Below, one piece after another: positions 22,792-40,938 of a DNA stretch of 64,000 bases. A model generated the notes under the pieces. That model was not told where the DNA came from and searched no databases. It saw nothing but the letters and a program-made list of their open reading frames with translations. Each line of letters opens with the position of its first letter. The first letter of the stretch is position 1. The stretch comes from Clostridium sp. (lineage in GTDB: Bacteria > Bacillota > Clostridia > Clostridiales > Clostridiaceae): contig JARLHR010000091.1 of the NCBI GenBank assembly GCA_031292145.1, positions 109,199 through 173,198 on the forward strand. Reading direction: 5' to 3'. The position numbers were made by a program, and so were the translations under genes.

Positions 22792-22833
22792 ATTATACAT
22801 AAATTATCACATCATTTCTGTTTCATTTGAAAC
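22792..22833 (-). promoter_or_regulatory. Promoter with HcpR-type operator for the Fe-S gene
   Basis: GTTTCAAATGAAAC (22820-22833) is a perfect palindrome centred at 22826.5. TATAAT (22797-22792, minus strand) follows. The centre lies 34.5 bp from the last -10 base, giving about -41.5 for the expected start, as in class II Crp/Fnr activation. No good -35 is present. Confidence 0.65.
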
Positions 22834-22986
22834 AAATAAAGCATATGAAAATAATAAATTATAAGGTAAGATAAAAAATATCATTTAAAAACTAAATAGT
22901 TCCACTTTTACAAAATATGCTATAATTAATTTATTATAGGAAGTAAAAGTCAATTGATGATTATTTTAATTTGGGGATGATAAAAA

Positions 22987-23643
22987 ATGATTAAAGCAGT
23001 TGTGTTTGATATGGATGGATTGATGTTTGATACAGAAAGGCTAACAGTTCAATCTTGGGACTATGCTGGAGAAAAAATTGGCATGGGTAAAATGGGACAC
23101 ATGGTTTATAAAACTTTAGGTATGAATATTGAAAGTTCAAGGAAGATTTTTATTCAAGAGTATGGTGACAAGATTGTTGAAGAAGATTTATCTGAGCATG
23201 CAAGAGAATTTTTTAATAATTATTTTAATGATCATGGTATGCCCTTAAAATCAGGTTTAATCGAATTGCTAAGTTACTTAAAAGCGAATAACTATAAAAT
23301 AGCAGTTGCAACATCATCAAATAAAGAAACTGCACTTAATCATTTTAAAAGAGCCAATATTACAGAATTTTTTGATGTAATAGTTTGTGGAGACATGATT
23401 AAAAATAGTAAACCTGCACCAGATATTTATTTAAAAGCAAGTGAGCTATTAGGACTAATGCCCTCGGAATGTTTAGCCCTTGAGGATTCTCCAAATGGAA
23501 TTCGTTCTGCATTTTTAGCAGGGTTACAACCAGTAATGATACCTGATTTAATTGAACCTACAAAAGAAATAATCGATTTGCTGCATTCTAAGTTAGCAAA
23601 TCTCAATGAAGTAATTAATCTACTTGATACTAAATGTAGTTAA
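22987..23643 (+). CDS. HAD-superfamily phosphatase (beta-phosphoglucomutase-like)
   Basis: The four HAD motifs are visible: VFDMDGLMFDTE (motif I), AVATSSN (II), KNSKPAPDIYLKA (III) and ALEDSPNGIRSA (IV). The alpha-helical cap is inserted after motif I (about 15-80). ATG follows GGGGATG. 218 aa fits PgmB/YqaB-like enzymes. The substrate (a sugar phosphate or similar) cannot be read from the sequence. It is the only rightward gene in this stretch. Confidence 0.92.
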   Translation: MIKAVVFDMDGLMFDTERLTVQSWDYAGEKIGMGKMGHMVYKTLGMNIESSRKIFIQEYGDKIVEEDLSEHAREFFNNYFNDHGMPLKSGLIELLSYLKANNYKIAVATSSNKETALNHFKRANITEFFDVIVCGDMIKNSKPAPDIYLKASELLGLMPSECLALEDSPNGIRSAFLAGLQPVMIPDLIEPTKEIIDLLHSKLANLNEVINLLDTKCS

Positions 23644-23779
23644 TAGTTTTCTTGTGCTGTAAATTAATAAAATTACATAGATATCATTCTCTATTCAACA
23701 TATTTTGAGAAGTCTTGTAAAAATCATAATGCTACTCAGTTTTCGTGAATCATCCACTTTAGAGAGAGCAGTAGTACAT

Positions 23780-23928
23780 TTATACTACAACAGACATGTA
23801 AATGTCTGTTGTATCTTCACTATCCACTTTAAAACCAAAACGTTCATATAGACGTTTAGCTGAACTTCCTTGTAGTACATTTAATGTCACGCGTTTTCCT
23901 ATTACATAATCTTGTTTAAGAAAATATT
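23780..23928 (-). pseudogene. GNAT acetyltransferase C-terminal remnant
   Basis: The frame encodes VTLNVLQGSSAKRLYERFGF and ends DIYMSVVV-stop, which is the C-terminal beta4-alpha4-beta5 part of a GNAT domain. An in-frame stop (TAA) precedes it and nothing of the N-terminal two thirds is left. A perfect 11-bp hairpin (ACAACAGACAT/ATGTCTGTTGT) lies within the last codons. Confidence 0.75.
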
Positions 23929-24061
23929 ATAACCATTATAACTCCTTTGTCTTAATTTATATCTTTTCTTATGGCATTTTAATCAGAGGTATCCAACAAT
24001 TTAGATATTCTAGCAATTAGTTCAGCCAGAAAAAACTGTACAAAAATATCTATACATAATT

Positions 24062-24300
24062 ACTAGACTTTGGGCGGATGTCTACACTAGAAATCAAATA
24101 CATTTGTGTGAAGCAGGCATTCGAAAATTTCGATGCTAAAAGCACTTAGAGGTAGGTTGTTCCACTTTTGCTTGTCAAGCCTAGTGGCTGGAGCAAGCTA
24201 AAGTGGGGGCAACCTGCCTCTTAGTGCTTTCAGCGAAATTTTCATAGCCCTGTGGAACACAAATGTATTTGATTTCGGTAAATTAGCACATAAGTCTAGT
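24062..24300. repeat. Rod-like long palindrome B1 (about 240 bp), 3' of nadC
   Basis: Nearly the whole 239 bp folds back on itself, e.g. ATCAAATACATTTGTGT with ACACAAATGTATTTGAT and AAGCACTTAGAGG with CCTCTTAGTGCTTT. Outer ends are CTAGACTT and AAGTCTAG. It ends 12 nt from the nadC stop. Related elements lie at 33284-33412 and 41012-41129. No open frame of note. Confidence 0.85.
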
Positions 24301-24311
24301 TCCTATGTTGG

Positions 24312-25154
24312 TTATCTATAAATCAAAGTTAAATTTTTCATACTTAAGTCAAGTATCTTAGCAGAATGAGTTAAAGCCCCAACAGATATATAATCTACCC
24401 CAATCTCTGCTATTTTCCCAATATTATTTAATTCTACATTTCCCGAAAATTCTATTAAAGCCCTTTTATTTATAAGCTTCACTGCTTCTCTTGCCATATC
24501 TAAACTCATATTATCTAACATTATTATATCTGCTTCTGCATCTAGTGCTTCCTGCACCATATCAAGGTTCTCCGTTTCAACTTCAATCTTTCTAACAAAT
24601 GAGGAATTTTTTCTTGCAAGTGTAACCGCATTATTTATTCCGCCCGCTGCGCTTATATGATTATCCTTAAGCATAACTCCATCAGACAAATTGAATCTAT
24701 GATTACACCCGCCACCAACTTTTACTGAATGCTTTTCTAATATTCTAAGATTTGGTGTTGTTTTTCTAGTGTCCAACAACTTTGCATTTGTATGGCTTAT
24801 TTCCTTTACAAATTTATTAGTTAATGTAGCTACTCCACTCATTCTTTGTAATAAATTTAATGCCACCCTTTCACCAAGTAACAAATTTCTGGTACTGCCC
24901 TTTAAAAATCCAATTTTCTCTCCTGGATATACCTTATCACCATCACCTTTATATAATTCTACGTCCACATTCCCCAATATATCAAATACTCTTTTAAACA
25001 CATCTAGACCCGCAATTACTCCTTCTTCTTTGCATAATAATTCTACGGTCGCAGTACTTTTTTCATCTATAATTGAGTTTGTTGTTATATCCTCATTTGG
25101 TATATCTTCAATAAGGGCCTCTTTTATTATTTTATCTACAACTAAGTAATTCAC
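24312..25154 (-). CDS. nadC: Nicotinate-nucleotide pyrophosphorylase (carboxylating)
   Basis: This converts quinolinate and PRPP to nicotinate mononucleotide. Signature segments are LLDTRKTTPNLRILEKHSVK, GGGCNHRFNLSDGVMLKDNH and the C-terminal IEFSGNVELNNI. 280 aa is normal. The GTG start overlaps the end of nadB, so the two are coupled. Last gene of nadABC. Confidence 0.98.
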   Translation of the reverse strand: MNYLVVDKIIKEALIEDIPNEDITTNSIIDEKSTATVELLCKEEGVIAGLDVFKRVFDILGNVDVELYKGDGDKVYPGEKIGFLKGSTRNLLLGERVALNLLQRMSGVATLTNKFVKEISHTNAKLLDTRKTTPNLRILEKHSVKVGGGCNHRFNLSDGVMLKDNHISAAGGINNAVTLARKNSSFVRKIEVETENLDMVQEALDAEADIIMLDNMSLDMAREAVKLINKRALIEFSGNVELNNIGKIAEIGVDYISVGALTHSAKILDLSMKNLTLIYR

Positions 25155-26439
25155 GATCTAACTTTCCCCCTTTCTCATTTATCACTTTCATAGCTAATTC
25201 CTTATTCTCATTTGCTATTTCTTCAATAGATCTATTTAGTTTGTCCACAACCGAAACTTTAATTTCCAAATAATCCACAATATTATTAATATAATTTGCA
25301 GCTCTCCTTGAAAATACAAGCCCCTCAAGTAATGAATTACTAGCAAGCCTATTAGCCCCATGTACTCCCGTGCAGCTTGTTTCTCCTACTGCATATAAAT
25401 TTTCCATAGACGTTTTAGAATTCAAATCGACTTCTATTCCACCCATAAAAAAATGTTGAGCCGGAGAAACTTTAATGTATTCTTTTGTTATATCTGTTCC
25501 CCTAGTTAAGCATTCATTATAAATAGTTGAAAATCTATTCTTTATATAATCTTCTCCTAAAAATCTTATGTCTAAATTTACATAAGGTGTCTCAGTTTCT
25601 CTAATTTGATCATATACAGCTTGTGATACAACATCTCTTGGTAAAAGTTCATTTATAAATCTTTTTCCATATATGTTAGTAAGAATTCCACCTTCCCCAC
25701 GTAAGGATTCAGATATTAAGAATCTTCTTTGATTTTCTCCATCTTTATAAAATGCTGTAGGATGAATTTGAATGTAATTCAAATCTTTTAAATTAACATC
25801 ATGCTTTATTGCTGCTGCTATTCCATCGCCCGTTAATATTCTCTGATTTGTTGAGTTATTATATAATCCACCTATACCACCAGTTGCAAGTACCACGGCT
25901 TTTGCATATACATTTATTTGCTCATTTTCTTTTACTAATATAGCCCCAATACATTTCCCTTCATCTTCCATAATGTCTATAAAATAGGTGTTTTCATAAA
26001 CATTTATATTATCCTTTTCTTTTACTTTATCAATCAAAATTTTAGCTGTGCTTTCCCCTGTATTATCTTTTGTGTGAACTATTCTACTTATAGAATGTGC
26101 ACCTTCTTTTGTATAATTTAAGCTGCCATCTTGATTTTCATCAAAGTTAAGCCCCATTTCTATTAATTTTTTTACATTGTATATAGATTCAAAAGCTAAA
26201 ACTTTTACTGCATCTACATCATTTTTATATTGTCCAGCTTTTAATGTATCTTCTATATAAAGCGGAATATCAGCTTCGCCCCTTGCAACAGATATTCCAC
26301 CTTGTGCTAAATAAGTATTACTGCAATTCATTTTATCCTTACATACAACTAAAACATTTAAGCTACCTCTTAAATTTAATGCACAATAAAGGCCTGATAC
26401 CCCTGAACCTATTACTAATACATCAACAAATTTATTCAT
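25132..26439 (-). CDS. nadB: L-aspartate oxidase
   Basis: This FAD enzyme oxidises L-aspartate to iminoaspartate for quinolinate synthesis. FAD motif VLVIGSGVSGLYCALNL at the N-terminus, then NTYLAQGGISVA, HPTAFY, SESLRGEGG and the C-terminal GETSCTGVHGANRLASNSLLEGLVF. At 435 aa it is shorter than the E. coli enzyme because the C-terminal helical region is reduced, a form usual in clostridia. Overlaps nadA and nadC. Confidence 0.97.
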   Translation of the reverse strand: MNKFVDVLVIGSGVSGLYCALNLRGSLNVLVVCKDKMNCSNTYLAQGGISVARGEADIPLYIEDTLKAGQYKNDVDAVKVLAFESIYNVKKLIEMGLNFDENQDGSLNYTKEGAHSISRIVHTKDNTGESTAKILIDKVKEKDNINVYENTYFIDIMEDEGKCIGAILVKENEQINVYAKAVVLATGGIGGLYNNSTNQRILTGDGIAAAIKHDVNLKDLNYIQIHPTAFYKDGENQRRFLISESLRGEGGILTNIYGKRFINELLPRDVVSQAVYDQIRETETPYVNLDIRFLGEDYIKNRFSTIYNECLTRGTDITKEYIKVSPAQHFFMGGIEVDLNSKTSMENLYAVGETSCTGVHGANRLASNSLLEGLVFSRRAANYINNIVDYLEIKVSVVDKLNRSIEEIANENKELAMKVINEKGGKLDRELLSCR

Positions 26440-27376
26440 TTCTAATCGCCTTATTTTCAGCTTCTGAAGATCCTAATTTATGCATATTTTCTAGACATCT
26501 TAAAGCTTTTTTCCTAATATCTTCATCTAAAATTATTTCATTACTCATATTTACTAGGGCATCATGTAAATTTTCAAGGGTTGTCTTCTTCATATCTTGG
26601 CAACATATGCTATCCCCTGGAATAAAAAAGCTTTTATTGGGATTTTTCTTTTTCAATCCGTGTAAGATCCCTTCCTCTGTAGCTATTATAAATTCATTTC
26701 CTTCATCTTTAGTTGCATAATCTATTATTCCACTGGTACTTCCTATATAATCTGCAATATCTCTAATTTCTTTTGTACATTCTGGGTGTACTAATACTTT
26801 AGCATCTTTATGTTTTTCTTTTTCTTTTAATATGTCTTCTCTACTGATCTTATTATGGCATCTGCAAAATCCATCCCACAATATAAATTCCTTTTCTGGA
26901 AAGAACTCTGAAATATATTCACCTAAATTTCTATCTGGTAAAAACATTATTTGCTTATTAGGTATATTTTTTAATATCTTTAATGCGCTTGAAGATGTTA
27001 CAGCTAAATCGCAATGAGCCTTTACATTAGCTGTTGAATTTATATAACATACTACATAAGCCTCTGGATATTTTTCTTTTAATTCTAACAAAGCTTTACC
27101 ACTAGCCATGTCTGCCATAGAGCATCCTGCACTAGGACATGGCATTAAAACTTTTTTATGAGGTGATAAAATTTTCGCACTTTCCGCCATAAATCTAACC
27201 CCACAAAACATTATAACTTCTTCCTTGCAATCTCTAGCTATTTCACTTAAATAATAAGAATCTCCTACATAGTCTGCTAACTCTTGTATAACTCCTGGTT
27301 GATAATAATGAGCTAGAATAATTGCATTTTTTTCCTTCTTTAGTTTTAATATTTCCTGAACTAAATTTGTCGTCAT
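26432..27376 (-). CDS. nadA: Quinolinate synthase
   Basis: This [4Fe-4S] enzyme condenses iminoaspartate and DHAP to quinolinate. Cluster cysteines are evident in MFCGVRFMAESAKIL, CPSAGCSMADM and GDSICCQDMKKTTL. Start MTTNLVQEILKLKKEKNAII is typical and 314 aa is normal. First gene of nadABC, behind a 16-bp palindromic operator. Confidence 0.98.
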   Translation of the reverse strand: MTTNLVQEILKLKKEKNAIILAHYYQPGVIQELADYVGDSYYLSEIARDCKEEVIMFCGVRFMAESAKILSPHKKVLMPCPSAGCSMADMASGKALLELKEKYPEAYVVCYINSTANVKAHCDLAVTSSSALKILKNIPNKQIMFLPDRNLGEYISEFFPEKEFILWDGFCRCHNKISREDILKEKEKHKDAKVLVHPECTKEIRDIADYIGSTSGIIDYATKDEGNEFIIATEEGILHGLKKKNPNKSFFIPGDSICCQDMKKTTLENLHDALVNMSNEIILDEDIRKKALRCLENMHKLGSSEAENKAIRNE

Positions 27377-27405
27377 ATTTACACCTCTTTAAAATTATAT
27401 ATTAC

Positions 27406-27421
27406 AGGTGTATATACACCT
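27406..27421. promoter_or_regulatory. Palindromic operator upstream of nadABC
   Basis: AGGTGTATATACACCT is a perfect 16-bp palindrome 30 nt upstream of nadA. NiaR-type niacin-responsive repressors control nad genes in Firmicutes; assigning this site to NiaR is an inference. Confidence 0.65.
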
Positions 27422-27525
27422 TATTGATAATTATATCACATAAAATTCTATCTTCAACTTATAGTTAAAATATTTTATTGCCTTATTTGCATATTACAGA
27501 TTTAAGTCACAAAATTATCCAACTT

Positions 27526-27571
27526 AGGCACATGAAAAAAATAACTATCTCCAACTTATTGGAGATAGTTA
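27526..27571 (-). terminator. Hairpin A6 with family tail, terminator of the chemoreceptor gene
   Basis: TAACTATCTCCAA/TTGGAGATAGTTA forms a 13-bp stem. In the gene direction it is followed by TTTTTTTCATGTGCCT, the TGTGCC-family end. Only one family end remains. Confidence 0.85.
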
Positions 27572-27586
27572 TAAATGAAAAATATT

Positions 27587-28633
27587 TTATTTTAAGTTTT
27601 CTGTCATGCTACTTAATTGTTCCACCGCATATACTGAATCTTGAATAGTAGAAGAAACTGCTTCCATAGCCTTAGATTGCTCTTTAGTTGTTTCAAGAGT
27701 TATTTTAGCATTTTTTATAGTTCCATTAACTGATTCTTGTATTTTATTTGTTAAATCCGAAATGCTTTTAGCTGTTTCTTTAGAAGTTTCTGCTAAATTT
27801 TTTATCTCTTTTGCAACAACAGAAAATCCTTTTCCAACTTCTCCTGCTTTAGCAGCTTCAATTGAAGCATTAAGCCCCAACATTTTAGTCTGAGCTGCTA
27901 TATTTTTTATTGCATTTAGTATGCTATTGATTTGTTCTGTTATTACACCTACTTGAGTTATTTCAGTATTCAGTTCCTCCTGTTGAGATGAAATATTGTT
28001 AGCTGAAGCTGAAAGTTCTTCTATTGTCGCTGATACTTGCATAAAATTATTAGACAATTTTTTTGAAATTAAATCTAATTCAATTCCATTATACCCATTT
28101 TTAGCAAGAGCATTTACAACAATAAATAGTACATTGGCAGCTTTTTCTATATGCTTTAAATCTACTATATTAACTTCCTTCGATGCACCTACAAGTCCAT
28201 CCATATCTACGTCTATTTCTCTCGCAATTTGAATTACATCATGTTCTTTAGGAGATTCTGTTACCATTTGTCCCCCTAAAACTGTACCTATTAATTTTCC
28301 TTCTACAATAATTGGTGCCGCAAAATCCACAAGTCCTGCATGACATGATCCTATGAACGGTTTTCCCATTCTTGCAGCTTCTTGACCCATTCTATTATGG
28401 GAAGCTGCACATCTATCATCGCCTTTTTTAGTTGAGTGTATAAAGTTATCACAAAATCTTGTATAAGAACTTGGTTTTGTTACCGGAACCCCATTCTTAT
28501 CCACTGTTACACTGGCACAATTCATTGCAAAAGCAAAATCATCTTGAAACTTTTGCAACAAATTAATATCAATTATATCCTTTATCTCTAATGCATCCAT
28601 GTCTAATGTATTATTGTCTAACAATCTTATCAT
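27587..28633 (-). CDS. Soluble chemoreceptor with PocR sensory domain
   Basis: Residues about 18-175 match a PocR ligand-binding domain (FQDDFAFAMNCASVTVDKNG, FCDNFIHSTKKGDDRCAASH, GSCHAGLVDFAAPIIVEGKLIGTVLGGQM). Its conserved Cys/His residues may hold a metal or ligand. The rest is a short MCP signalling tip (NIAAQTKMLGLNASIEAAKAGE, GKGFSVVAKEIKNLA). There is no membrane segment, so it should be cytoplasmic. PocR domains are thought to sense small hydrocarbon derivatives such as propanediol. Confidence 0.9.
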   Translation of the reverse strand: MIRLLDNNTLDMDALEIKDIIDINLLQKFQDDFAFAMNCASVTVDKNGVPVTKPSSYTRFCDNFIHSTKKGDDRCAASHNRMGQEAARMGKPFIGSCHAGLVDFAAPIIVEGKLIGTVLGGQMVTESPKEHDVIQIAREIDVDMDGLVGASKEVNIVDLKHIEKAANVLFIVVNALAKNGYNGIELDLISKKLSNNFMQVSATIEELSASANNISSQQEELNTEITQVGVITEQINSILNAIKNIAAQTKMLGLNASIEAAKAGEVGKGFSVVAKEIKNLAETSKETAKSISDLTNKIQESVNGTIKNAKITLETTKEQSKAMEAVSSTIQDSVYAVEQLSSMTENLK

Positions 28634-28800
28634 AAATTTTCTGCCCCTTTACGTATATTTTATTTAATTATATATAATAAAAATTTAACTTACTGTGTAT
28701 GCTTTTAATTATCGACTTTTACTATGTTTTCTTGATACTTTTCTATTAAAATTTGTCTAAAATTATTTTAATAAAATTTCATAATATTTCTAATTTTTTA

Positions 28801-28852
28801 TTGACAAAAAATAACTGCAGCTGTATTATTGTATTATTAACTTAATACAATA
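28801..28852 (+). promoter_or_regulatory. Promoter and GntR operator of the ABC operon
   Basis: TTGACA (28801), 17-bp spacer, TATTAT (28824). A perfect inverted repeat TATTGTATTA-N6-TAATACAATA (28827-28852) overlaps the -10 box and start site, so the GntR protein probably represses its own operon. Confidence 0.88.
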
Positions 28853-28883
28853 ATGCAATAATACAATATAAAGGAGTGAGATT

Positions 28884-29252
28884 ATGTCGTGGCATTTTAG
28901 TGATGATAGACCCATCTATGTGCAATTAATGGAGCAAATTCAACTACAAATTGTTTCAGGGGCATATAAGGCTGGAGATAAATTACCATCCGTGAGAGAT
29001 ATGGCGAGCGATGCTGCTGTTAATCCTAATACAATGCAAAAAGCACTAACCGAGTTAGAGCGTACAGGTTTAGTATTTAGTCAAAGAACAAGTGGTAGAT
29101 TTATTACGGAGGACATTAATATGATTAAAAATATTAGAGATGGTCTAGCCCTGGATCAAATTGAGAAGTTTCTTTATAATATGAAAAAAATTGGCTATAC
29201 AAAACAAGAAGCAATAGAACTTATAGAAATTATGTTTAAGGAGATGAAATAA
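28884..29252 (+). CDS. GntR-family regulator (YtrA type)
   Basis: N-terminal winged HTH: PIYVQLMEQIQLQIVSGAYKAGDKLPSVRDMA ... NPNTMQKALTELERTGLV. The 122-residue length with a short helical tail and the following ABC genes match the YtrA subfamily, which regulates adjacent transporters. A GGAG site precedes the ATG, and the stop overlaps the start of the ATPase gene. Confidence 0.94.
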   Translation: MSWHFSDDRPIYVQLMEQIQLQIVSGAYKAGDKLPSVRDMASDAAVNPNTMQKALTELERTGLVFSQRTSGRFITEDINMIKNIRDGLALDQIEKFLYNMKKIGYTKQEAIELIEIMFKEMK

Positions 29253-30031
29253 TGAATAATGCTGATAATAAAATATTGTCTGATTCTAGTGACGTTAATA
29301 CAACATCTAATTTTACAAATAGCCAAATGGATAATAGTCCTATTTTAGAATGTAGAAATTTAGTAAAAACTTATGCCAATTCTGAAGCTTTAAAAGGTAT
29401 CGATTTAACAATTAATCGAGGACGAATTGTCGGACTTTTAGGACCTAATGGAAGTGGAAAAAGTACCCTTATAAAACTTGCAAATGGACTTTTAACCCCA
29501 TCAAGCGGAGAAATATTAATAGCTGGGAGTAAACCTGGAATTGATACAAAAAAAATTATTTCCTATCTTCCCGAAAGGACTTATTTAAATGATTGGATGA
29601 AAGTTTCTGATATTATTAATTTCTTTCAAGATTTCTATGATGACTTTAATCCTCAAAAAGCTTACAGCATGCTTGAAAAATTAAATATTAATCCTAACGA
29701 TAAATTGAAAACTATGTCTAAAGGTACAAAAGAAAAAGTTCAACTTATTTTAGTTATGAGCAGGGAAGCAGATCTTTATTTATTAGATGAGCCTATAGCA
29801 GGTGTTGACCCTGCAGCTAGAGATTACATTTTAAACACAATAATCACTAACTATAATGAAAATGCTACTATTATTATCTGTACCCATATTATTTCAGATG
29901 TTGAAAGAATATTAGATGACGTAGTATTCATCTCATATGGAAAGATATTCTTAACTAAAAGTGTCGATGAAATTAGAGAAAATGAAGGAAAGAGCGTTGA
30001 TGCTCTATTTAGGGAGGTATTTAAATGTTAG
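29252..30031 (+). CDS. ABC transporter ATP-binding protein
   Basis: Walker A GLLGPNGSGKST, signature-like TMSKGTKEKVQLILVM and Walker B LYLLDEP followed by the CTHIISD switch His. The first about 30 residues are a hydrophilic Asn/Ser-rich extension. The signature has KGTKEK where LSGGQ is usual, as in the YtrB/EcsA-like exporters next to YtrA regulators. Works with the permease downstream. Confidence 0.92.
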   Translation: MNNADNKILSDSSDVNTTSNFTNSQMDNSPILECRNLVKTYANSEALKGIDLTINRGRIVGLLGPNGSGKSTLIKLANGLLTPSSGEILIAGSKPGIDTKKIISYLPERTYLNDWMKVSDIINFFQDFYDDFNPQKAYSMLEKLNINPNDKLKTMSKGTKEKVQLILVMSREADLYLLDEPIAGVDPAARDYILNTIITNYNENATIIICTHIISDVERILDDVVFISYGKIFLTKSVDEIRENEGKSVDALFREVFKC

Positions 30032-30825
30032 GGAAATTAATGAAGTATGAAATAAAAGCAACTGGTAGAATACTTATACCACTATACATTGCTTTATTAG
30101 CATTTGCTCTTATAAATAAAGTTTTTATTGGAACTGGATTGCATAGGCTTAATGGCTTTGGTTCAATTCCATTTATCCTAAGCATATTTGCATACGGAGC
30201 TACAATGGCTGCTGTTTTTATTGTTACTTTCTTTATAATCATTCAGAGATTTTATAAAAATTTACTTGGTGATGAAGGATATTTAATGAATACTCTTCCT
30301 GTAAGCACTATATCAAATATTACAAGTAAGCTTTCAATAGCAACTTTTTGGAATATAATAAGTGGAATTGTAGCTATACTTTCAATAATAATAATGGCCT
30401 TTGAACCTGTTACTTTTGCTAACTTTTTCGCTGAATTGTTTAACGCACTATCAAAAGTTAGTACTGAAATTGGTGGACAAATGCTTATATTAATTGTTGA
30501 AGTTATTGTTGCTATTTTAATTTCTCTAATAAAATCTGTGACTATGATTTATGCTTCAATCTCCATTGGACATTTATTTAGTAAGCATAAAATACTTTCA
30601 GCTTTTGGTGCATTTATAGTTTTAAATATTATTACTGGTGCAATTTCAGCAGTTTTGGGAATAACTTTTTCATATTCACACTATATAGATGCATTCCAAA
30701 ATATGCACTCAATATTTCCTATTCACATGCTTTTAATATTTGGTATTTTATTTAACCTACTCTTTTTCATAATCTATTTTATAATAACTAACTATATATT
30801 AAAAAATAAATTGAATTTAGAATAA
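30025..30825 (+). CDS. ABC transporter permease, six predicted membrane segments
   Basis: 266 residues with hydrophobic segments at about 14-32, 48-74, 105-125, 150-180, 190-215 and 235-260. It overlaps the ATPase gene end. The pair resembles exporters regulated by YtrA-type proteins, often linked to envelope stress or antimicrobial peptides; the substrate is not readable. Confidence 0.88.
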   Translation: MLGKLMKYEIKATGRILIPLYIALLAFALINKVFIGTGLHRLNGFGSIPFILSIFAYGATMAAVFIVTFFIIIQRFYKNLLGDEGYLMNTLPVSTISNITSKLSIATFWNIISGIVAILSIIIMAFEPVTFANFFAELFNALSKVSTEIGGQMLILIVEVIVAILISLIKSVTMIYASISIGHLFSKHKILSAFGAFIVLNIITGAISAVLGITFSYSHYIDAFQNMHSIFPIHMLLIFGILFNLLFFIIYFIITNYILKNKLNLE

Positions 30826-30900
30826 TACTTATAAGGAAACCCATTGAGACGTTTATTTATTAAATGTTATTTAATTTATGATAAAGGATAATGTATTTAA

Positions 30901-33169: not shown

Positions 33170-33195
33170 CTTATTATTCTTATAACTAGAACAAT

Positions 33196-33237
33196 CAAGG
33201 GTTAGCTTCTTTTAAGCTAACCCTTGGTTGTTTTTCG
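33196..33237 (+). terminator. Terminator of lysP
   Basis: CAAGGGTTAGCTT and AAGCTAACCCTTG form a perfect 13-bp stem with a 5-nt loop, followed by a T run. Confidence 0.95.
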
Positions 33238-33283
33238 TTATTCATATATATCTAAATTCTAGAATAATTAAATATATATATTA

Positions 33284-33412
33284 ATCTTAAGTGATTACTA
33301 AACTAGAAATAAGTAACATATTGTGTGGAGTGTTTCATTGGAATTTTAATGGTAATCGGAACACAATATGTTACTTATTTCGGTTAGCTATCACATAAGT
33401 TTAAATTCTAAT
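33284..33412. repeat. Rod-like palindrome B2, 3' of the kimA-like gene
   Basis: GAAATAAGTAACATATTGTG pairs with CACAATATGTTACTTATTTC around a loop of about 35 nt. Outer ends (CTTAAGTGATTACTA ... TAGCTATCACATAAG) match element B1's end. It ends about 25 nt from the stop of the minus-strand permease gene. Confidence 0.82.
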
Positions 33413-33436
33413 TTGGATATCTATGTCTTTACCAAT

Positions 33437-35275
33437 CTATTCATTAATTATATAAGGAACAGTAATAATTATTACATTTCTCATTTTTAATATAGATCTT
33501 CTTAAAAGAATAGATGTCTGATTGTGAAGTGTTTGATGCCACCATTTATGTATAATGAATTGAGGCATTACTATTGTAATTACTTCATGTTTTTGTAAAT
33601 GTTTATGTTTTTCTTGTACATAAGCAAGTAACTTCTCATTAATATTTCTATATGGTGCATTCTCTATTACTAATTGTGCTGCTATTCCCAATTCATTATA
33701 CTTTTCAATTAATTTTTTTGTTAATTCATCATCTGTACTCACATGATAAACTTCTATATTATCTCCAACCGTTAAAGCATAATTTAAACTTTTAATAAAC
33801 GATTTGTTTATTGTTTGTACTGCAACAATAACATGTTTAGTTATAGCTTCCCTTACAATTAAACTTTCTAGTCCTGTTTCGATCTTTAAATTTTCTCTTA
33901 CTTTAGTATAATGTCTTCTAACTCTTAACATTGCTGTTACAAATATTGGTATGCATACAAGTACAATCCATGCACCATGTGCAAATTTCTCAACACCTAT
34001 TATTATGCAGGTTGCTGCTGTAACAGTTGCCCCTAAACCATTTATGAAAGCTTTATGTCTCCATCCAGCTTCTTTACCTTTAGTCCATTTCATAAACATT
34101 CCAAATTGTGATAAGGTGAATGATATAAATACGCCTACTGCATATAATGATAGTAATACATGTGTACTACCATCGGCAATGTAAACTAAAAATGAAGAAA
34201 CTAAGAATAACAATACTATACCATTTGAAAAACTTAATCTTGTCCCTCTTTTTCCAAGTTGTCTTGGTACATATCCGTCTTTAGCTAATATTGATAATAG
34301 TAAAGGTAAATCTGAAAATGCAGTATTTGCTGCAAGAGTAAGAATTATAGCTGTTGTCGCTTGAATAACAAAGAACATTAAACTATTTTGTCCAAAAACT
34401 TGCATTGCTATTTGTGCGATTACTGTGACATCTTCACCTGGTGCTGCCTTATACATTGTTGAAAGGTATGATATACCTCCAAATATCATAAAAACGATAC
34501 AAGCCAATGTACCTAATACTATTTTTGCATTTTTTTGAGCTGGATTTTTAAAGTTTGGTATTCCATCACTTACTGCCTCAATACCAGTTAACGCTGTACA
34601 TCCAGACGAAAAGGCCTTTAAAAATAGCAATATAGTTAAATCGCCTGTAGCTTGTTTTATAGGGTATATTGGGATTGGATTTTCTTTTAACACCAAAACC
34701 TTAAACAGTCCTGTTATTATCATTATTACTACTGATAAAATAAATAAGTATGTTGGTATTCCAAATAATTTAGATGAATCTCTTATTCCCCTTAAATTCC
34801 CTAAAGTTATTAATCCTATTACGAAAATAGCTATTATTGCTTGGTATGGCAATAATGCTGGAAATGCAGATGTTATTGCAGCTGCGCCTGCACAGGTACT
34901 AACTGCAACTGTTAGTAAATAATCTATTATTAAAGATGATGCAGCTACTAATCCTGGTAACTTCCCAATATTTTGACTCGCAACAATATAAGATCCTCCT
35001 CCATGAGGAAAATTGTCAATTATTTGTCTATAGGAAAATACAATTATACCTAGTAATACTGTAATTGCTATTGCTATTTCAAGCATTGATCCATATGCAC
35101 GTGCACCTAGTACAGGTATAAGAACCAATAATATTTCTTCACTGGCATAAGCTACTGATGAAATAGCATCACTTGATAATATCGGTAATCCCCAAACAAC
35201 ATTGAATTTTTCTTCAGCTAATTCTGTTGTCTTAAGAGCCCTTCCAATCAATAATGATTGAATTTTTTTTAACAT
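33437..35275 (-). CDS. kimA: KimA-like potassium/APC permease
   Basis: The start MLKKIQSLLIGRALKTTELAEEKF and ILSSDAISSVAYASEEILL closely resemble B. subtilis KimA (YdaO), a high-affinity K+/H+ symporter. About 12 membrane segments occupy residues 30-450, then a cytoplasmic C-terminal domain of about 150 residues with a Usp-like feel. 612 aa matches KimA. B. subtilis kimA has a c-di-AMP riboswitch; I see none upstream here. K+ as substrate is an inference by family. Confidence 0.82.
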   Translation of the reverse strand: MLKKIQSLLIGRALKTTELAEEKFNVVWGLPILSSDAISSVAYASEEILLVLIPVLGARAYGSMLEIAIAITVLLGIIVFSYRQIIDNFPHGGGSYIVASQNIGKLPGLVAASSLIIDYLLTVAVSTCAGAAAITSAFPALLPYQAIIAIFVIGLITLGNLRGIRDSSKLFGIPTYLFILSVVIMIITGLFKVLVLKENPIPIYPIKQATGDLTILLFLKAFSSGCTALTGIEAVSDGIPNFKNPAQKNAKIVLGTLACIVFMIFGGISYLSTMYKAAPGEDVTVIAQIAMQVFGQNSLMFFVIQATTAIILTLAANTAFSDLPLLLSILAKDGYVPRQLGKRGTRLSFSNGIVLLFLVSSFLVYIADGSTHVLLSLYAVGVFISFTLSQFGMFMKWTKGKEAGWRHKAFINGLGATVTAATCIIIGVEKFAHGAWIVLVCIPIFVTAMLRVRRHYTKVRENLKIETGLESLIVREAITKHVIVAVQTINKSFIKSLNYALTVGDNIEVYHVSTDDELTKKLIEKYNELGIAAQLVIENAPYRNINEKLLAYVQEKHKHLQKHEVITIVMPQFIIHKWWHQTLHNQTSILLRRSILKMRNVIIITVPYIINE

Positions 35276-35520
35276 AATTCTTCCCCCACTATGTATTAAA
35301 AATACTATGTATTATTAAATTAAATCATGTAATATTATAGGTAAAATATCTTTTAATCTTTTATCATATAATGTTACAATACTACAGATTATATCTTCTT
35401 ATTTTCATACTGTAAATACATTCGTTTTTCATAAATACGTTTTCATTACATTTTTTTATAATATATTTTTCGACATTTTTCTTGTAATACAATTTTTCTA
35501 TTTTCTTATAAAAATAAAAA
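35276..35520. other. AT-rich upstream region of kimA
   Basis: I see no gene, no c-di-AMP riboswitch core and no strong promoter in this stretch. Confidence 0.5.
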
Positions 35521-35561
35521 TGGAACCTTTAAGCATATTAACAAAATGCTTAAAAGTTCCA
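35521..35561 (-). terminator. Terminator of hcp
   Basis: TGGAACCTTTAAGCAT pairs with ATGCTTAAAAGTTCCA (one bulge), followed by a T run in the minus direction, 31 nt beyond the hcp stop. Confidence 0.9.
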
Positions 35562-35591
35562 TCCTAAATTATCTATTTCTTATGTTTATTT

Positions 35592-37229
35592 TTATTTTAA
35601 AAACATTTCAATATCATCTTCAACATTTGTTATTCCACCTATACCAAAGTTTTCTACTAAAACATTAGCTACATTTGGTGAAAGGAATGCTGGAAGTGTT
35701 GGTCCTAAGTGGATGTTCTTTACTCCTAAGTGTAATAGAGATAATAAAACTATTACTGCTTTTTGTTCATACCATGCAATATTAAATGCTATTGGTAATT
35801 CATTTATATCTTCAAGACCGAATACTTCTTTAAGTTTTAATGCAATTACTGCTAATGAGTAACAATCATTACATTGTCCTGCATCTAAAACTCTAGGAAT
35901 TCCACCTATATCTCCTAAATCTAATTTGTTATATTTATATTTTGCACAACCTGCTGTTAATATAACTGTATCCTTTGGAAGTGCTGCTGCAAAGTCTGTA
36001 TAGTATGATCTAGCTTTTTGTCTACCATCACAACCTGCCATAACAAAGAATTTCTTTATTGCTCCAGCTTTTACTGCTTCAACTACTTTATCTGCCAAAG
36101 CTAGTACTTGATTGTGAGCAAATCCACCAACGATTTCTCCTTCTTCGATTTGAGTAGGAGCTGCACATTTTTTAGCTTGTTCAATAATTGCTGAGAAATC
36201 TTTCTTTCCATTTTCATCAGCTGTAATATGAGTACATCCTTCATATCCTGATGCACCAGTAGTGTATAATCTTCCTTTATAACTATCCTTTGGAGGAACT
36301 ATACAGTTTGTAGTCATAAGTATTGGTCCGTTGAAGCTTTCAAATTCTTCTGGTTGCTTCCACCAAGCATTTCCGTAGTTACCTACTAAGTGTGAGTACT
36401 TCTTTAATTGTGGATAATAATGAGCTGGTAACATTTCAGAGTGAGTATAAACATCTACTCCTGTTCCTTCTGTTTGAATTAATAATTGTTCTAAATCTTT
36501 TAAGTCATGTCCTGAAATTAATATTCCTGGATTCTTACCTACTCCAATATTAACTTTTGTTATTTCAGGGTTACCATAGCTTTCTGTATTAGCTTTATCT
36601 AATAAAGCCATTCCATCAACACCAACTTTTCCTGTTTCTAAAGTTAATGCTATATATTCATCTATTGTAACGTTATTATCAGCAGTTAATGATAATGCCT
36701 TTTGCATAAATGCACATATATTTTCATCTTCATATCCTAAAGCATTAGCATGCTTCATATATGCAGATAATCCTTTTAATCCATAAGTAATAAGTTCTCT
36801 TAAACTTCTAATGTCTTCATTTCCAGTAGCTAATACTCCAACTATTCCTGCTTTAGCTTCCATTTCTTCTCTAGTTTCAGCATTGTATAAAGCAGCTGAA
36901 CTTAAATTTTCCTTATTACCTAATTGAGCTAATAATTCTTCTTTTAATTTTAAGGTTTCTTTTACTCTACCGTAAAATACTTCTTTATCAAAGTTAGCAT
37001 TAGTTATAGTAGTGAAAAGGTTCATTGTTACTGTCGTATTAATTGCTTGAGATACTGCTATACCTTCTTCCCTAGCTCTAGTTGCTGCTTCTGATAAACC
37101 TCTTGTTACGTATATTAATAAATCTTGCATTTTTGCTAGGTCTGGAGTCTTACCACACACCCCTCTTACTGTACAGCCTGTACACCCTGCTGCTTCTTGA
37201 CATTGAAAACAGAACATTTTATTATCCAT
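35592..37229 (-). CDS. hcp: Hydroxylamine reductase / hybrid-cluster protein
   Basis: Hcp reduces nitric oxide or hydroxylamine and protects anaerobes from nitrosative stress. The N-terminal cluster motif C7-x2-C10-x8-C19-x5-C25 is visible in [20 protein letters not shown], and later cluster ligands appear in [17 protein letters not shown] and [11 protein letters not shown]. 545 aa is normal. Monocistronic, with a candidate HcpR operator at the activating position. Confidence 0.98.
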
Positions 37230-37312
37230 CTTAAATTCTCCTTTACATATATATTTTATTAAATTTATTTTTAATTTTATTGGGACTTATTAATTCCTCG
37301 TCCTATAAACTT

Positions 37313-37354
37313 ATTTTAGGCTAAAATAAAAAAATAGTATGTATCATTTGTTAC
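37313..37354 (-). promoter_or_regulatory. hcp promoter with HcpR-type operator
   Basis: On the minus strand GTAACAAATGATAC (37354-37341) lies upstream of TAAAAT (37318-37313). It differs by one base from the GTAAC-N4-GTTAC pattern known for clostridial HcpR. The centre is 34.5 bp from the end of -10 (about -41.5). The operator lies in the right arm of the preceding operon's terminator. Confidence 0.7.
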
Positions 37355-37368
37355 ACACTATTTTTATT
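37328..37368 (-). terminator. Terminator of the PadR operon
   Basis: AAAATAGTATGTA pairs with TACACACTATTTT (one mismatch), with a T run in the minus direction. Confidence 0.8.
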
Positions 37369-37428
37369 AATTTATTTTTCTTTTTAACTCTTAGCTATTA
37401 TTACATATCCGAACCAATGCAAACAATA

Positions 37429-38250
37429 TTAAACATATTTTAATATTGGTCTATTCGTCTTATCTAAAATATAAATCATATATCCAAATACATTTAAAGT
37501 AAAAAATATAACTATCCATACTAAGCTTAAGTTCTTCTTGTAATGCGCGTTAATAACACACCAAATAGAAAACAGAAACCAATAACATACAAATAATATT
37601 TCTGCTGCCACAATTAAATAGCCTGGGATAAAACCAAGAAATCCGTTGTAGTCAAATCCATATTGTACTTTCCAAACAGTACCATCAATTGAAGTAGGAT
37701 AGGTAGTAAGAGTGCACTCATCGTTCTCAACTTCTTCAACTGAAAAATTTGAAGGATATAAAATATCAGGGATTCTACTATAATTGCTTTCTTTATATAC
37801 ACCAACATATCTAAATTGTTTTTTGTATTTTGTGAGCAGCTCTGTTACTTCTTCATAGGATATTTGATCTCCTGCTTCGAGCTTTCCTCCTACTGCATTC
37901 TTAAGTGTTTGTGGAATTCTTAGCCTAAACATATCATCAGTTACTCTATAACTAATGTAACAAATTGATGATAATAATAATGATACTATTGATACAATTA
38001 GTAATGTTTTTGCAAATTTTCTTTTAACTTTAAATACTTTTGATAATTCATTTTCTACTTGACCACATTCACCAAATCTACTAATAGCTATTTTTATACT
38101 TTCTTCCTCTGTTTTACCCTCATTCTTAAGTTCATCCACTGTTTGCAGTAAATGACTTCTCATTTCTTGTTTTAAATCTTCTACTTCATCTTGATTTCCT
38201 TGTACATTTTTATATACAGAGTTAATATATGCTTCAATTCTATTCATCAC
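37429..38250 (-). CDS. Membrane protein with permease-prefix (DUF1700-like) domain
   Basis: Residues 1-70 (IEAYINSVYKNVQGNQDEVEDLKQEM ... AISRFGECGQVENELSKVFK) form the helical domain often found before permeases and in DUF1700 proteins paired with PadR regulators. Membrane segments lie at about 77-97, 205-228 and 240-260. It overlaps the PadR stop by one base, so the two are co-translated. The function is unknown. Confidence 0.8.
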   Translation of the reverse strand: MMNRIEAYINSVYKNVQGNQDEVEDLKQEMRSHLLQTVDELKNEGKTEEESIKIAISRFGECGQVENELSKVFKVKRKFAKTLLIVSIVSLLLSSICYISYRVTDDMFRLRIPQTLKNAVGGKLEAGDQISYEEVTELLTKYKKQFRYVGVYKESNYSRIPDILYPSNFSVEEVENDECTLTTYPTSIDGTVWKVQYGFDYNGFLGFIPGYLIVAAEILFVCYWFLFSIWCVINAHYKKNLSLVWIVIFFTLNVFGYMIYILDKTNRPILKYV

Positions 38251-38582
38251 TATACCTCCTTGAAAAACGTATCTACAATATTTCTAAAAAATAGCCATTC
38301 CTCTTTTTTAGATTTTAAATACTTCTTACCTTCCTCTGTAATCTTATGAAAACGCCTTCTTCCGCCTCCAGTTTCCGAATCATCCCAATAAGCTGTAACC
38401 AGCCCACTGCTTTCAAGTCTTTTTAGCACCACATACATAGTTCCTTCTTTAATCTCAAAATTATTATCGCTGATTGCACGTATTCTTTTTGAAATCTCAT
38501 ATCCATATAAATCTTCAACAAGAAGTAAACTTAAAATTATACTTTCTATATATCCTTTAATCATCTCTTTATTAATTTCCAA
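38250..38582 (-). CDS. PadR-family regulator
   Basis: TTG at 38582 lies 8 nt after GGGGGTG; the upstream in-frame ATG at 38597 precedes that RBS. The winged HTH is clear: YIESIILSLLLVEDLYGYEI, EGTMYVVLKRLESSGLVTAYWDD and GGRRRFHKITEEGKKYL. 110 aa is typical for PadR-s1. Represses probably its own operon. Confidence 0.95.
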   Translation of the reverse strand: MEINKEMIKGYIESIILSLLLVEDLYGYEISKRIRAISDNNFEIKEGTMYVVLKRLESSGLVTAYWDDSETGGGRRRFHKITEEGKKYLKSKKEEWLFFRNIVDTFFKEV

Positions 38583-38611
38583 TATTTGCACCCCCATATT
38601 TAATATACCCT

Positions 38612-38638
38612 ATAGTACTCTATACTGTAAAGTACTAT
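38612..38638. promoter_or_regulatory. PadR operator candidate
   Basis: ATAGTACT-N11-AGTACTAT, a perfect dyad 30 nt upstream of the PadR start. It overlaps a promoter on the minus strand (TTTACA, 18 bp, TATATT). Confidence 0.75.
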
Positions 38639-38974
38639 ATATTACAATCTACAAAATTCATAGTACCAGTAAATTACTTACAATAAATAGTGACTACTTC
38701 ATAGCGACAGCCCTATATTTGTCTTTAAGTACTATATTAACTTTTATTATAGTCGCATAAATATAAGAGGTCAGGCACATTCAAAAAAATAATGTTTTTG
38801 AATTATATGGACAAAATTAATAAATTATTTGCTGGATTCTCAACAAATTTTAAGCAAGCACTAAGGATATATTAAGAATCATCCTATATTATTTATTTTA
38901 AGTAATAATTTAATAGATGCTTATGCAAAAATTGAGAACTAAGAACAGATATCAAAATTAAGGGGATGAAAAAA
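38639..38974. other. Gene-free spacer with a half TGTGCC-family element
   Basis: GGCACATTCAAAAAAATAAT at about 38774-38793 is one end of the short palindrome family with no matching second end. The rest is AT-rich. AAGGGG at 38960 is the RBS of the next gene. Confidence 0.6.
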
Positions 38975-39541
38975 ATGAAAAAAACGTTCATATTAAGATT
39001 AGCGAGATTATTTACAGCAATAGCAGCAGTGGTAGGTATAGCATTACATCCAACAAGTAAGTTAGTGGATGGAGTATCTGGAGCTACTAGACAAAAGAAT
39101 CACATTAGCACTTCCGACAATAGTAGTACAAATTCTAATAACAGTGATATCACTTTTAATAATGATACTAATAATTCGAATATTAATCCTAGCCCTTCTA
39201 ATATTAGTCCAAGCATAAATTATAATAGTACTCCAACTATAACTGTAGGTTGGGCCAGAGAAGGAACTGACTGGATATATACCTTAGCAAATGGATCAAA
39301 AGCTACAGGATGGTTAAATGATGGTGGTAAATGGTACTATTTTTCATACAATGGAGTGATGTCAAAAGGATGGATTCAAACAAGTGGAAAATGGTATTAT
39401 CTAGCTAGCAGTGGTGCAATGCAAACCGGCTGGATAAAAGATAGTTCCGACAACTGGTATTATTTGGATGATTCAGGTGCTATGTTAGCAAACACTACAA
39501 TAGGTGGATATACATTAGGTTCTGATGGTAGAATGTTATAA
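38975..39541 (+). CDS. Secreted cell-wall-binding-repeat protein
   Basis: ATG 38975 lies 9 nt after AAGGGG; an ATG at 38966 abuts the RBS. The first about 30 residues are a signal peptide (KKTFILRLARLFTAIAAVVG). A Ser/Asn/Thr-rich linker spans about 45-85. Then come about four choline-binding-type repeats (GWLNDGGKWYYFSYNGVMSK, GWIQTSGKWYYLASSGAMQT and so on). The protein has no catalytic domain, so it is a surface-bound protein of unknown purpose. Confidence 0.9.
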   Translation: MKKTFILRLARLFTAIAAVVGIALHPTSKLVDGVSGATRQKNHISTSDNSSTNSNNSDITFNNDTNNSNINPSPSNISPSINYNSTPTITVGWAREGTDWIYTLANGSKATGWLNDGGKWYYFSYNGVMSKGWIQTSGKWYYLASSGAMQTGWIKDSSDNWYYLDDSGAMLANTTIGGYTLGSDGRML

Positions 39542-39568
39542 TCAAAATAGGTGCTTAAAGGAAATGAA

Positions 39569-39607
39569 AACTAGAGGTTGTCGCAATTTGTGCGACAACC
39601 TCTAGTT
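39569..39607. terminator. Bidirectional terminator
   Basis: AACTAGAGGTTGTCGCA and its perfect complement enclose a 5-nt loop. It serves both convergent genes; the right arm includes the stop codon of the hemerythrin gene. Confidence 0.93.
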
Positions 39608-40150
39608 ATATTTTTTCTCTAATTTTTCTAAGATAAGAATATTTTCATCTTTTACATGTATATTATTTTTTTCATAATCAACACATTCCATATTTACTAA
39701 TTCCAATACATCACTTTTTAATTCTCTTTGAGCAAACTTATATATTACATTATCTTCTTTGTCTATATGCCTTTGCAATAACTCAGTATAGGAAATAGCA
39801 TTAGCAATTACATATAGTTTTGCTTCTTCATCACCATTTTTTACTTTTTCAAGAGCCTCATTAAGATTTTTTATATACAGCCTTCCCAAATCATGTTCTA
39901 CTAACATACCATACTTTATAGTTTTTTCTCCTAATGCTCCTAAATTATCTACCATTCTATTAAAAAGCATTATCTCTTCCTTATTATGATGATGTCCATC
40001 TGCATAATTTTTTATAAAATCAATTATTAAATAAAAATCCTCATAATTTACATCTGCACCTCGTAAGACTGCATAGCATGCTTTTCTTACTACTTTGAGC
40101 ATACGTAAAATATATTTATGTTCCTCCATCATTAGATCTATAGCATTCAT
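39602..40150 (-). CDS. Hemerythrin-domain protein
   Basis: A four-helix di-iron protein: His ligands are in MMEEHKYIL, GHHHNKEEIMLFNRM, VEHDLGRLY and LQRHIDKEDNVIY. 182 aa fits single-domain hemerythrins. Bacterial members bind O2 or NO or repair iron centres. It is co-transcribed with the gene upstream (20-nt gap) behind an HcpR-type operator, which points to oxygen or nitrosative stress. Confidence 0.94.
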   Translation of the reverse strand: MNAIDLMMEEHKYILRMLKVVRKACYAVLRGADVNYEDFYLIIDFIKNYADGHHHNKEEIMLFNRMVDNLGALGEKTIKYGMLVEHDLGRLYIKNLNEALEKVKNGDEEAKLYVIANAISYTELLQRHIDKEDNVIYKFAQRELKSDVLELVNMECVDYEKNNIHVKDENILILEKLEKKYN

Positions 40151-40170
40151 CTTAACTCCTCCCCCATTAT

Positions 40171-40809
40171 TTATTGTTTTTCTATTGAAAATATATCATC
40201 TTCATATTGAGTATATTTAAACTCATTATTTATAGTTTCTACAAATGATTTAATCCATAAATTTCTTAGATTATAAAAATCATTAACATTCACGCCTTCT
40301 TTTTCCCATGCGCTCTTATGAACACAAATTGTTCTCTTCCACTTAACAATATTTTCATCAGAAGTTAAAACTTCATTTACTCTATCACAAGGCATTCCAT
40401 CTAATATATAGTCATTTATTTTATTGTATAAATCTACTGCATTATCAATTTTCCCAAAACTATTATTTACTTCATTCCCTGCTTTAATACCTTGTTCAAT
40501 ATAAATTTTTTCTAACTTACTTAAATCATTTTTATCATTTTCAAGAATTTTAGATGTCCATGCTGCCATTCTTCCTTCAGCACTGCTTATTTTTTCTTGT
40601 AACCAACCATGAATATTGCTTGTATCAATCATATCTTCCAATGGTTTATTAGGAAGCTTTTCTCCATACTTTTCATTTATATCCTTACTCAATGTCTCTA
40701 CATCAAGATTTTCACTCTTCGCAAGATTTATAACATCACTCTCTAATCCTTCAAACCATAATATTTTGTCAAATAACCAATAATGTATCTTACCTAAAAA
40801 TAAACTCAT
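40171..40809 (-). CDS. Conserved hypothetical protein, 212 aa, hemerythrin partner
   Basis: I do not recognise a family. It is soluble and mostly helical. Conserved-looking features are HYWLFDKILWFEGLE at the start, HGWLQEKISSAEGRMAAW, and RTICVHKSAWEKEGV, where Cys and His could bind a metal or haem. It is the first gene of a two-gene operon with hemerythrin. A role in NO or oxygen handling is suggested only by neighbour and operator. Confidence 0.75.
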   Translation of the reverse strand: MSLFLGKIHYWLFDKILWFEGLESDVINLAKSENLDVETLSKDINEKYGEKLPNKPLEDMIDTSNIHGWLQEKISSAEGRMAAWTSKILENDKNDLSKLEKIYIEQGIKAGNEVNNSFGKIDNAVDLYNKINDYILDGMPCDRVNEVLTSDENIVKWKRTICVHKSAWEKEGVNVNDFYNLRNLWIKSFVETINNEFKYTQYEDDIFSIEKQ

Positions 40810-40896
40810 TAATATTCCTCCTTGTACAATCCTAAATTATTTTTATTAAACTTATTTTAACCAATTAATTGTTTAACTATTAATTTCTATAGCCAT

Positions 40897-40938
40897 ATCA
40901 TACAACATTACTCTGCATATTTATGTTACAAATGTTAC
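40897..40938 (-). promoter_or_regulatory. Promoter with HcpR-type operator for the hemerythrin operon
   Basis: GTTACAAATGTTAC (40925-40938, plus) is one base off GTAAC-N4-GTTAC. TATGAT (40902-40897, minus strand) is the -10. The centre lies 34.5 bp from its end, the same spacing as at hcp and the Fe-S gene. Confidence 0.62.

Follow-up and report, generated by a model that had tools for sequence, protein, structure and literature searches.

The 64,000-nucleotide (nt) stretch of Clostridium sp. DNA analyzed here (contig JARLHR010000091.1, positions 109,199 to 173,198; below, the window) carries a candidate HcpR regulon whose genes all lie on the minus strand. The hcp gene (35592..37229) encodes a hybrid cluster protein of 545 amino acids (aa) that matches PF03063 and scores above cut-off with both NF003658 and TIGR01703. 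An iron-sulfur (Fe-S) gene at 21987..22715 encodes a frdX-like, ferredoxin-containing protein of 242 aa with 4Fe-4S domains. In the 212-aa/hemerythrin operon, the gene for a 212-aa protein of unknown function (40171..40809) is followed by that for a hemerythrin-like (HHE) protein of 182 aa (39602..40150; PF01814) with a RIC-like ligand set. The putative regulator is an HcpR2-type member of the Crp/Fnr family (45594..46274), 226 aa long when counted from the ATG at 46274; a GTG at 46280 is a possible alternative start.

The initial annotation had reported like-placed HcpR-type operators before three of these genes, and this was confirmed. A search of the full 64 kb for GTWWC-N4-GWWAC gave three matches and no others, compared with 0.38 expected and a maximum of two in any of 100 shuffles. 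They precede the Fe-S gene (22820..22833, GTTTCAAATGAAAC on the gene strand), hcp (37341..37354, GTAACAAATGATAC), and the 212-aa gene (40925..40938, GTAACATTTGTAAC), all inside an 18-kb span on the minus strand. The corresponding -10 elements are TATAAT (22792..22797), TAAAAT (37313..37318), and TATGAT (40897..40902). The gap between operator and -10 element is 22 nt at all three promoters, and the operator centre therefore lies 34.5 bp from the last -10 base, i.e., at about -41.5, in agreement with the spacing claimed before. The positions of the sites held as well, but not the AAAT core ascribed to all of them: the third site had been quoted on the plus strand, and its core becomes ATTT when read on the gene strand. 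The observation is far beyond chance.

Operator conservation and promoter geometry in relatives

The annotation had proposed a motif search upstream of the same genes in related genomes, and the sites proved to be conserved there. The 212-aa protein was found at 133 places in 128 of 194 sampled Clostridiaceae genomes, and 110 of these places were examined: the best 30, with 300 nt of upstream sequence, and 80 further ones, with 350 nt. Among the best 30 loci, 29 have an exact site and one a site with a single mismatch (0.1 exact sites expected from dinucleotide shuffles); among the 80 further loci, 63 are exact and 67 have at most one mismatch. The total is 92 exact sites in 110 loci. For hcp, 28 of 30 orthologs carry an exact site and the other two a site with one mismatch (0.06 exact expected by shuffling). 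Conservation at the frdX-like gene amounts to 15 exact sites in 30 orthologs, or 20 when one mismatch is allowed (0.08 exact expected). Another sample of 80 named GTDB loci, which overlaps the first set, was searched to 900 nt, a distance so great that some sites could be those of other genes. In 53 of these loci an exact site is accompanied by TANNNT at 22 nt, in six the exact site lacks TANNNT, and in four TANNNT lies at 22 nt from a site that fits only the relaxed pattern GTNNC-N4-GNNAC.

The promoter geometry is equally constant. We collected exact-site promoters having 45 nt behind the site, using the 350-nt search, in which the frdX-like sites number 16 rather than the 15 above. TANNNT occurs at exactly 22 nt in 85 of 92 promoters of the 212-aa gene, 27 of 28 of hcp, and all 16 of the frdX-like gene (128 of 136 over the three classes). 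At offsets of 21 and 23 nt the counts fall to 1 and 3, 1 and 0, and 0 and 0, respectively. Because of this fixed spacing the operator is predicted to be centred at about -41.5. Activators of the Crp/Fnr family occupy this position at class II promoters, and the predicted arrangement fits such a promoter.

In some relatives a single palindrome has TANNNT at 22 nt on both sides; 16 such places were seen in 190 loci scanned, some genomes being counted twice. They include three loci in which hcpR is divergent from the 212-aa gene (L370, L371, and L375) and three in which a DUF1858 gene is (L198, L207, and L208). An operator of this kind between divergent genes is a possible two-way class II promoter.

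We consider it very probable that this Clostridium has its HcpR regulon in the window, where HcpR (45594..46274) would act on GTWWC-N4-GWWAC palindromes of hcp, the frdX-like gene, and the 212-aa/hemerythrin operon. HcpR most likely binds these palindromes about 41.5 bp before the start site and from there would activate transcription beside RNA polymerase. Binding by HcpR, activation rather than repression, and nitric oxide (NO) or a related species as the signal are what we infer. The products would be Hcp for NO detoxification, a ferredoxin-like partner encoded by the frdX-like gene, and the 212-aa protein with its di-iron-type hemerythrin.

The regulator and its co-variation with operators

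The host genome (6.34 Mb; 95.85% complete according to its record) was searched with HTH_Crp_2; of the 22 matches, six score above cut-off. Five of the six are Crp/Fnr-type open reading frames (ORFs; L144–L148), and these five proteins were read. Among them, Arg180-Pro181 of the HcpR2 helix occurs in the 45594..46274 protein alone; residues 180 and 181 follow CRP numbering, placed on the window helix by reference to the CRP helix. The helix, IPRPSLSREL, is shared by the window regulator and its orthologs. The protein combines a cNMP-binding domain (PF00027) with a Crp-type helix-turn-helix domain (PF13545), and the cysteine cluster of FNR is absent from it, no Cys occurring before residue 49. 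A GTAACnnnnGTTAC-like site, as expected of an HcpR2 target, stands before hcp, and the 28 conserved sites among its 30 orthologs are exact for GTWWCNNNNGWWAC. The neighboring second Crp/Fnr regulator (44767..45510) has the helix RETISR. A CRP-type motif for this second regulator was considered and rejected, as it is not enriched in the window (22 occurrences with at most two mismatches, 28.6 expected).

Rodionov et al., 2005 (PMC1274295) pair Pro181 HcpR2 proteins with GTAACnnnnGTTAC and give different motifs where residue 181 is Ser or Gln. Our relatives of the window genome appear to follow the same rule: in several of them Pro181 goes with GTAAC and Ser181 with GTTGC-N4-GCAAC. An HcpR relative is encoded divergently from the frdX-like gene at 7 of the 30 relatives' loci (L130–L132, L135, L136, L139, and L143), an arrangement not seen in the window. 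In L130, L131, L132, and L136 the divergent regulator is of the Ser181 type (DRSALSR or DRSAMCR) and the frdX operator is GTTGC-N4-GCAAC; Ser181 regulators are also found at L135 and L139, where frdX has no clean site. In genome G043 the best HcpR relative has Ser181 (L252), and the other match is a RETISR protein. Its hcp carries the GTTGC-type site GTTGCAATTGCAAC with TAGAAT at 22 nt, and its 212-aa gene (L172) the GTTGC-type site GTTGCCTGTGCAAC with TATAAT at 23 nt, not 22. G046 encodes both regulator types and has two hcp genes, one with GTTGCTTTTGCAAC and one with GTAACCTGTGTTAC; GTTGCTTTTGCAAC also precedes hcp of G172. G050 and G068 likewise have both regulator types, and there the hcp examined has GTAAC and frdX has GTTGC. 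Ser181-type operators, where checked (hcp), have TANNNT at 22 nt. The pairings of Pro181 with GTAAC and of Ser181 with GTTGC, both present in G046 and each there with an hcp of its own, can serve as a natural test case for the recognition code of Crp/Fnr proteins. Separately, we note that loci L451, L452, L453, L130–L132, and L136 represent a second, Ser181 subtype of HcpR with GTTGC-N4-GCAAC at frdX and hcp.

Gene order also ties the 212-aa gene to hcpR and hcp. Besides the divergent hcpR loci with one shared palindrome and -10 elements on both sides, the 212-aa gene is followed by hcp in L347, L353, and L360 and lies behind hcp in L236; in L053 it has hcpR before it and hcp after it. The claim that the 45594..46274 regulator controls all three targets is thus supported for hcp and the 212-aa/hemerythrin operon by conservation, spacing, operon context, and co-variation. 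For the Fe-S gene it is less sure, its operator being off-consensus.

Other features of the window surround these genes. Between the hemerythrin operon and hcpR (41130..46280, minus strand) lie asrABC-type genes, a gene for a formate/nitrite-type transporter, and the second Crp/Fnr regulator gene; the window search found no exact HcpR site before any gene in this interval. The second regulator gene overlaps at its end with a strong inverted repeat with longer arms (CGTGATATACATCACG, 44756..44771), which looks terminator-like, though also like a CRP-type palindrome. By eye, the region directly preceding hcp (37429..38597) encodes a PadR-like regulator and a membrane protein pair, and between these and the hemerythrin gene comes a cell-wall-binding repeat protein (38966..39541).

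The 212-aa protein, hemerythrin, and DUF1858 partners

Neither Pfam nor NCBIfam gave a match for the 212-aa window protein at E ≤ 0.001; the closest named relatives of this protein, 73% identical, are from C. puniceum and Clostridium sp. C2-6-12. Residues H9, W69, E78, D142, and H164 are present in all 107 aligned rows of the family, and C141 and H67 in 106. These invariant His, Glu, and Asp residues and the near-invariant Cys suggest a metal or thiol site. A PDB profile search with the family returned one match at E 3 and none of use. Kinship with ATC hydrolase (PF14196) was rejected: only 1 of 107 members matched, at E 0.0066, and an hhalign comparison with six aligned PF14196 proteins gave a probability of 0.1%. 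ABC-3C CTD11 is matched by 23 of 107 members, at best with E 9.6e-5, and by residues 16–80 of the window protein with E 0.017. Neither the 212-aa protein nor the hemerythrin has a plasmid or PHROGs match. Among paper titles and abstract openings we recognized none on the 212-aa protein, though RegPrecise or the supplement of Rodionov et al., 2005 may list it as a hypothetical gene. The 212-aa family is apparently new as a core member of the HcpR regulon, a regulon type known since 2005.

Two single loci deserve mention. In L386, from an uncultured Cetobacterium metagenome-assembled genome (MAG), the 212-aa gene and hemerythrin are preceded by GTAACATATGTTAC with TATAAT at the same spacing. Cetobacterium is a genus of Fusobacteriota, and the locus is apparently outside Bacillota, through transfer or MAG contamination. 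In L212, a short nitrite/sulfite-reductase-like gene heads the operon that contains the 212-aa gene, and an HcpR-type site and -10 element stand upstream at the standard spacing.

In 70 of 110 loci the 212-aa gene is followed directly by a hemerythrin-like gene; in five the latter lies at another place in the examined stretch, and in 35 the stretch has none. From hemerythrin genes without a directly adjoining 212-aa gene we picked 24, which are not all such genes and one of which is preceded by no more than 58 nt of sequence. An exact site stands before 11 of the 24, and before 15 a site with at most one mismatch together with TANNNT at 22 nt. All 46 aligned hemerythrin rows contain H11, H54, E58, H86, H128, and E132, i.e., the four His and two bridging Glu ligands of RIC proteins in HHE spacing. 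A domain search of the 182-aa protein found PF01814 only and not ScdA_N, the N-terminal domain fused to it in RIC proteins; we therefore do not file the hemerythrin as a RIC protein but only as one that possibly works in a RIC-like manner. A PDB profile search with it gave no match at E 0.1.

A DUF1858 gene joins the 212-aa/hemerythrin arrangement in 28 of 110 loci, and on six examples its product was confirmed as TIGR03980, the hybrid cluster protein-associated redox disulfide domain. It lies behind the hemerythrin gene in 14 loci, upstream in the same orientation at a distance of up to 300 nt in seven, and divergently in seven; one more locus has it elsewhere in the examined stretch. In three of the divergent cases (L199, L227, and L235) the domain is inside a long ORF at the place of hcp, divergent from the 212-aa gene, and so it looks fused to Hcp. 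When two DUF1858 examples were tested against Pfam, one gave a weak ScdA_N match (E 3.6e-4, below cut-off).

This combination of DUF1858, 212-aa, and hemerythrin proteins suggests a split relative of the RIC repair system, with the 212-aa protein as an extra part. The 212-aa protein would act as a partner of the RIC-like hemerythrin, joined in some relatives by the DUF1858 protein, their shared role being repair of NO-damaged iron centres or removal of NO. More tentatively, and as a doubtful proposal for now, the 212-aa family could be an unrecognized third part of a split iron-centre repair system (ScdA_N-like DUF1858, RIC-like hemerythrin, and the 212-aa protein), which strict anaerobes would encode as one set under HcpR control. 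Three polypeptides would then do the work of the single one of YtfE/ScdA, and the transfer of iron or thiol-bound NO would fall to the 212-aa protein. Hcp is a recognized NO-detoxifying enzyme of anaerobes, and how they repair NO-damaged iron centres is less clear; the 212-aa family provides a concrete candidate component of NO defence that simple deletion can test.

Alternative explanations and known HcpR systems

Several observations weigh against an HcpR regulon of this composition. In the 350-nt search, 17 of the 80 further loci of the 212-aa gene lacked an exact site. They include second copies (L182, L240, and L241), weak homologs (L242 and L243), the GTTGC-type L172, and genes in second place in operons where the site precedes the first gene (L212, and L220, which lies behind hemerythrin); part of the 17 is unexplained. 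Seventeen of the 80 named loci have no site in 900 nt, two of these having less than 30 nt upstream. Few genomes beyond Clostridiaceae encode the 212-aa protein: in a phylum sample it occurs in 22 of 398, the window's own counted. An exact site was seen in only 1 of 19 such loci examined, and a site with at most one mismatch in 4. The regulator gene has an exact site in none of 30 hcpR orthologs, that of the window included, and these gave no sign of autoregulation (five sites with at most one mismatch, 2.0 expected), though L370, L371, and L375 have the two-way operator between hcpR and the 212-aa gene. G007 has a GTTGC frdX site and no Ser181 regulator among those read. In G035, GTAAC sites precede hcp and the 212-aa gene and no Pro181 regulator was found; its three regulator relatives are weak (best E 8.9e-9), the sole readable helix has Glu181, and HcpR may be absent from the assembly. 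Finally, 81 of 110 loci, the window's among them, have no DUF1858 gene in the examined stretch, and none was found in the whole 64-kb window.

Throughout the genome the loose GTWWC-N4-GWWAC pattern occurs at 101 places, compared with 149 for a reversed control. Loose palindrome counts alone give the regulon no support, which comes only from position and conservation. The tighter GTWWCAWWTGWWAC has eight copies in the 6.3-Mb genome, compared with two for its control; of the five copies outside the window, four are inside ORFs 70 aa or longer. The remaining copy (L017) falls outside the listed ORFs and by eye resembles a coding remnant. The lack of genome-wide enrichment is what one would expect if the window sites were chance palindromes in AT-rich DNA, but their conservation in relatives, with fixed spacing across more than 100 loci, settles the question, and we regard chance as extremely improbable. 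A narrower doubt concerns the Fe-S gene, whose operator (GTTTC..GAAAC) is off the HcpR2 consensus. Position 3 is T in 9 of 16 frdX-like sites, compared with 1 of 92 for the 212-aa gene and 0 of 28 for hcp. HcpR might thus serve hcp and the 212-aa operon, with the frdX-like gene read mainly by another factor, or weakly by HcpR, through a GTTGC-type remnant of a lost Ser181 paralog. The frdX-like sites do run from GTTTC or GTTGC to GAAAC or GCAAC, eight of the 30 orthologs besides the 15 exact ones carry one or two GTTGC/GCAAC halves, and a Ser181 regulator faces frdX across GTTGC-N4-GCAAC in L130–L132 and L136. Yet all 16 exact frdX-like sites keep the 22-nt spacing, GAAAC halves also occur in the hcp sites of several relatives, and the five Crp/Fnr-type ORFs read in the genome include one Pro181 protein and no Ser181 protein. 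We consider this alternative unlikely. The operator may nevertheless be a weaker or differently read site, perhaps a GTTGC operator drifting towards HcpR after loss of a Ser181 paralog, and HcpR control, though still likely, is least certain here among the three targets.

The nature of the signal is a separate matter. HcpR of P. gingivalis binds heme through Met68 (PMC12750200). A further point against a regulon of this type is that Met68 (PDB 9day) pairs in a pairwise alignment with Arg64 of the window regulator. The position is Arg or Lys in the Pro181 rows shown; Cys49 and Tyr66 are kept in at least 33 of 34 regulator rows, two of which are the window protein. The window regulator thus lacks the heme-ligand methionine, a residue not shown to define the clostridial branch. 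As Met68 is not conserved, NO as the signal rests on kinship with studied HcpRs and on C. difficile, in which loss of hcpR is described as lowering hcp and frdX and raising NO sensitivity (PMC12915319). The operators could be real and the cue another one, for instance sulfite, hydroxylamine, or oxygen, which hcp, the hemerythrin, and the 212-aa protein would then serve. The replaced Met68 and the asrABC-type sulfite reductase and formate/nitrite-type transporter genes adjoining hcpR are in line with this. Against it, the window has no exact site before asrABC, the transporter gene, or the regulator genes, and HcpR of C. difficile controls hcp and frdX and confers protection against NO. Hcp and RIC proteins, moreover, are NO-linked in the published work we drew on. 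We judge a different signal to be quite improbable. Of the proposed link of the 212-aa protein and hemerythrin to NO defence, regulon membership is borne out by conserved operators, and NO itself is suggested by analogy.

The HcpR regulon proposed here can be compared with systems already described. P. gingivalis HcpR, a heme-NO sensor that controls hcp (PMC12750200), is homologous to the window regulator (phmmer E 1.2e-16) but has Gln at residue 181 (Rodionov et al., 2005, PMC1274295), where the window regulator has Pro. C. difficile HcpR is a Crp/Fnr regulator adjoining hcp-frdX; among the changed genes a putative site is given only upstream of frdX-hcp, and hemerythrin does not appear in the main text (PMC12915319). 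It has Ser181 and another motif (PMC1274295). YtfE has ligands H84/H129/E133/H160/H204/E208 (PMC9268430); the window hemerythrin has the same ligand order at near spacing and, like E159 of YtfE, a Glu just before the third His. RIC/YtfE/ScdA di-iron repair proteins contain ScdA_N, whereas here the weakly ScdA_N-like DUF1858 is a separate gene in some loci only, and the 212-aa protein is an extra component. In anaerobes, the HcpR2 regulon (Rodionov et al., 2005, PMC1274295) has the same GTAACnnnnGTTAC motif, Pro181, and targets hcp and frdX. That regulon type already includes hemerythrin-like genes; the main-text passages do not name the 212-aa protein, which the supplementary table may list. 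To it we add the measured -41.5 geometry and the pairing of Ser181 regulators with GTTGC operators.

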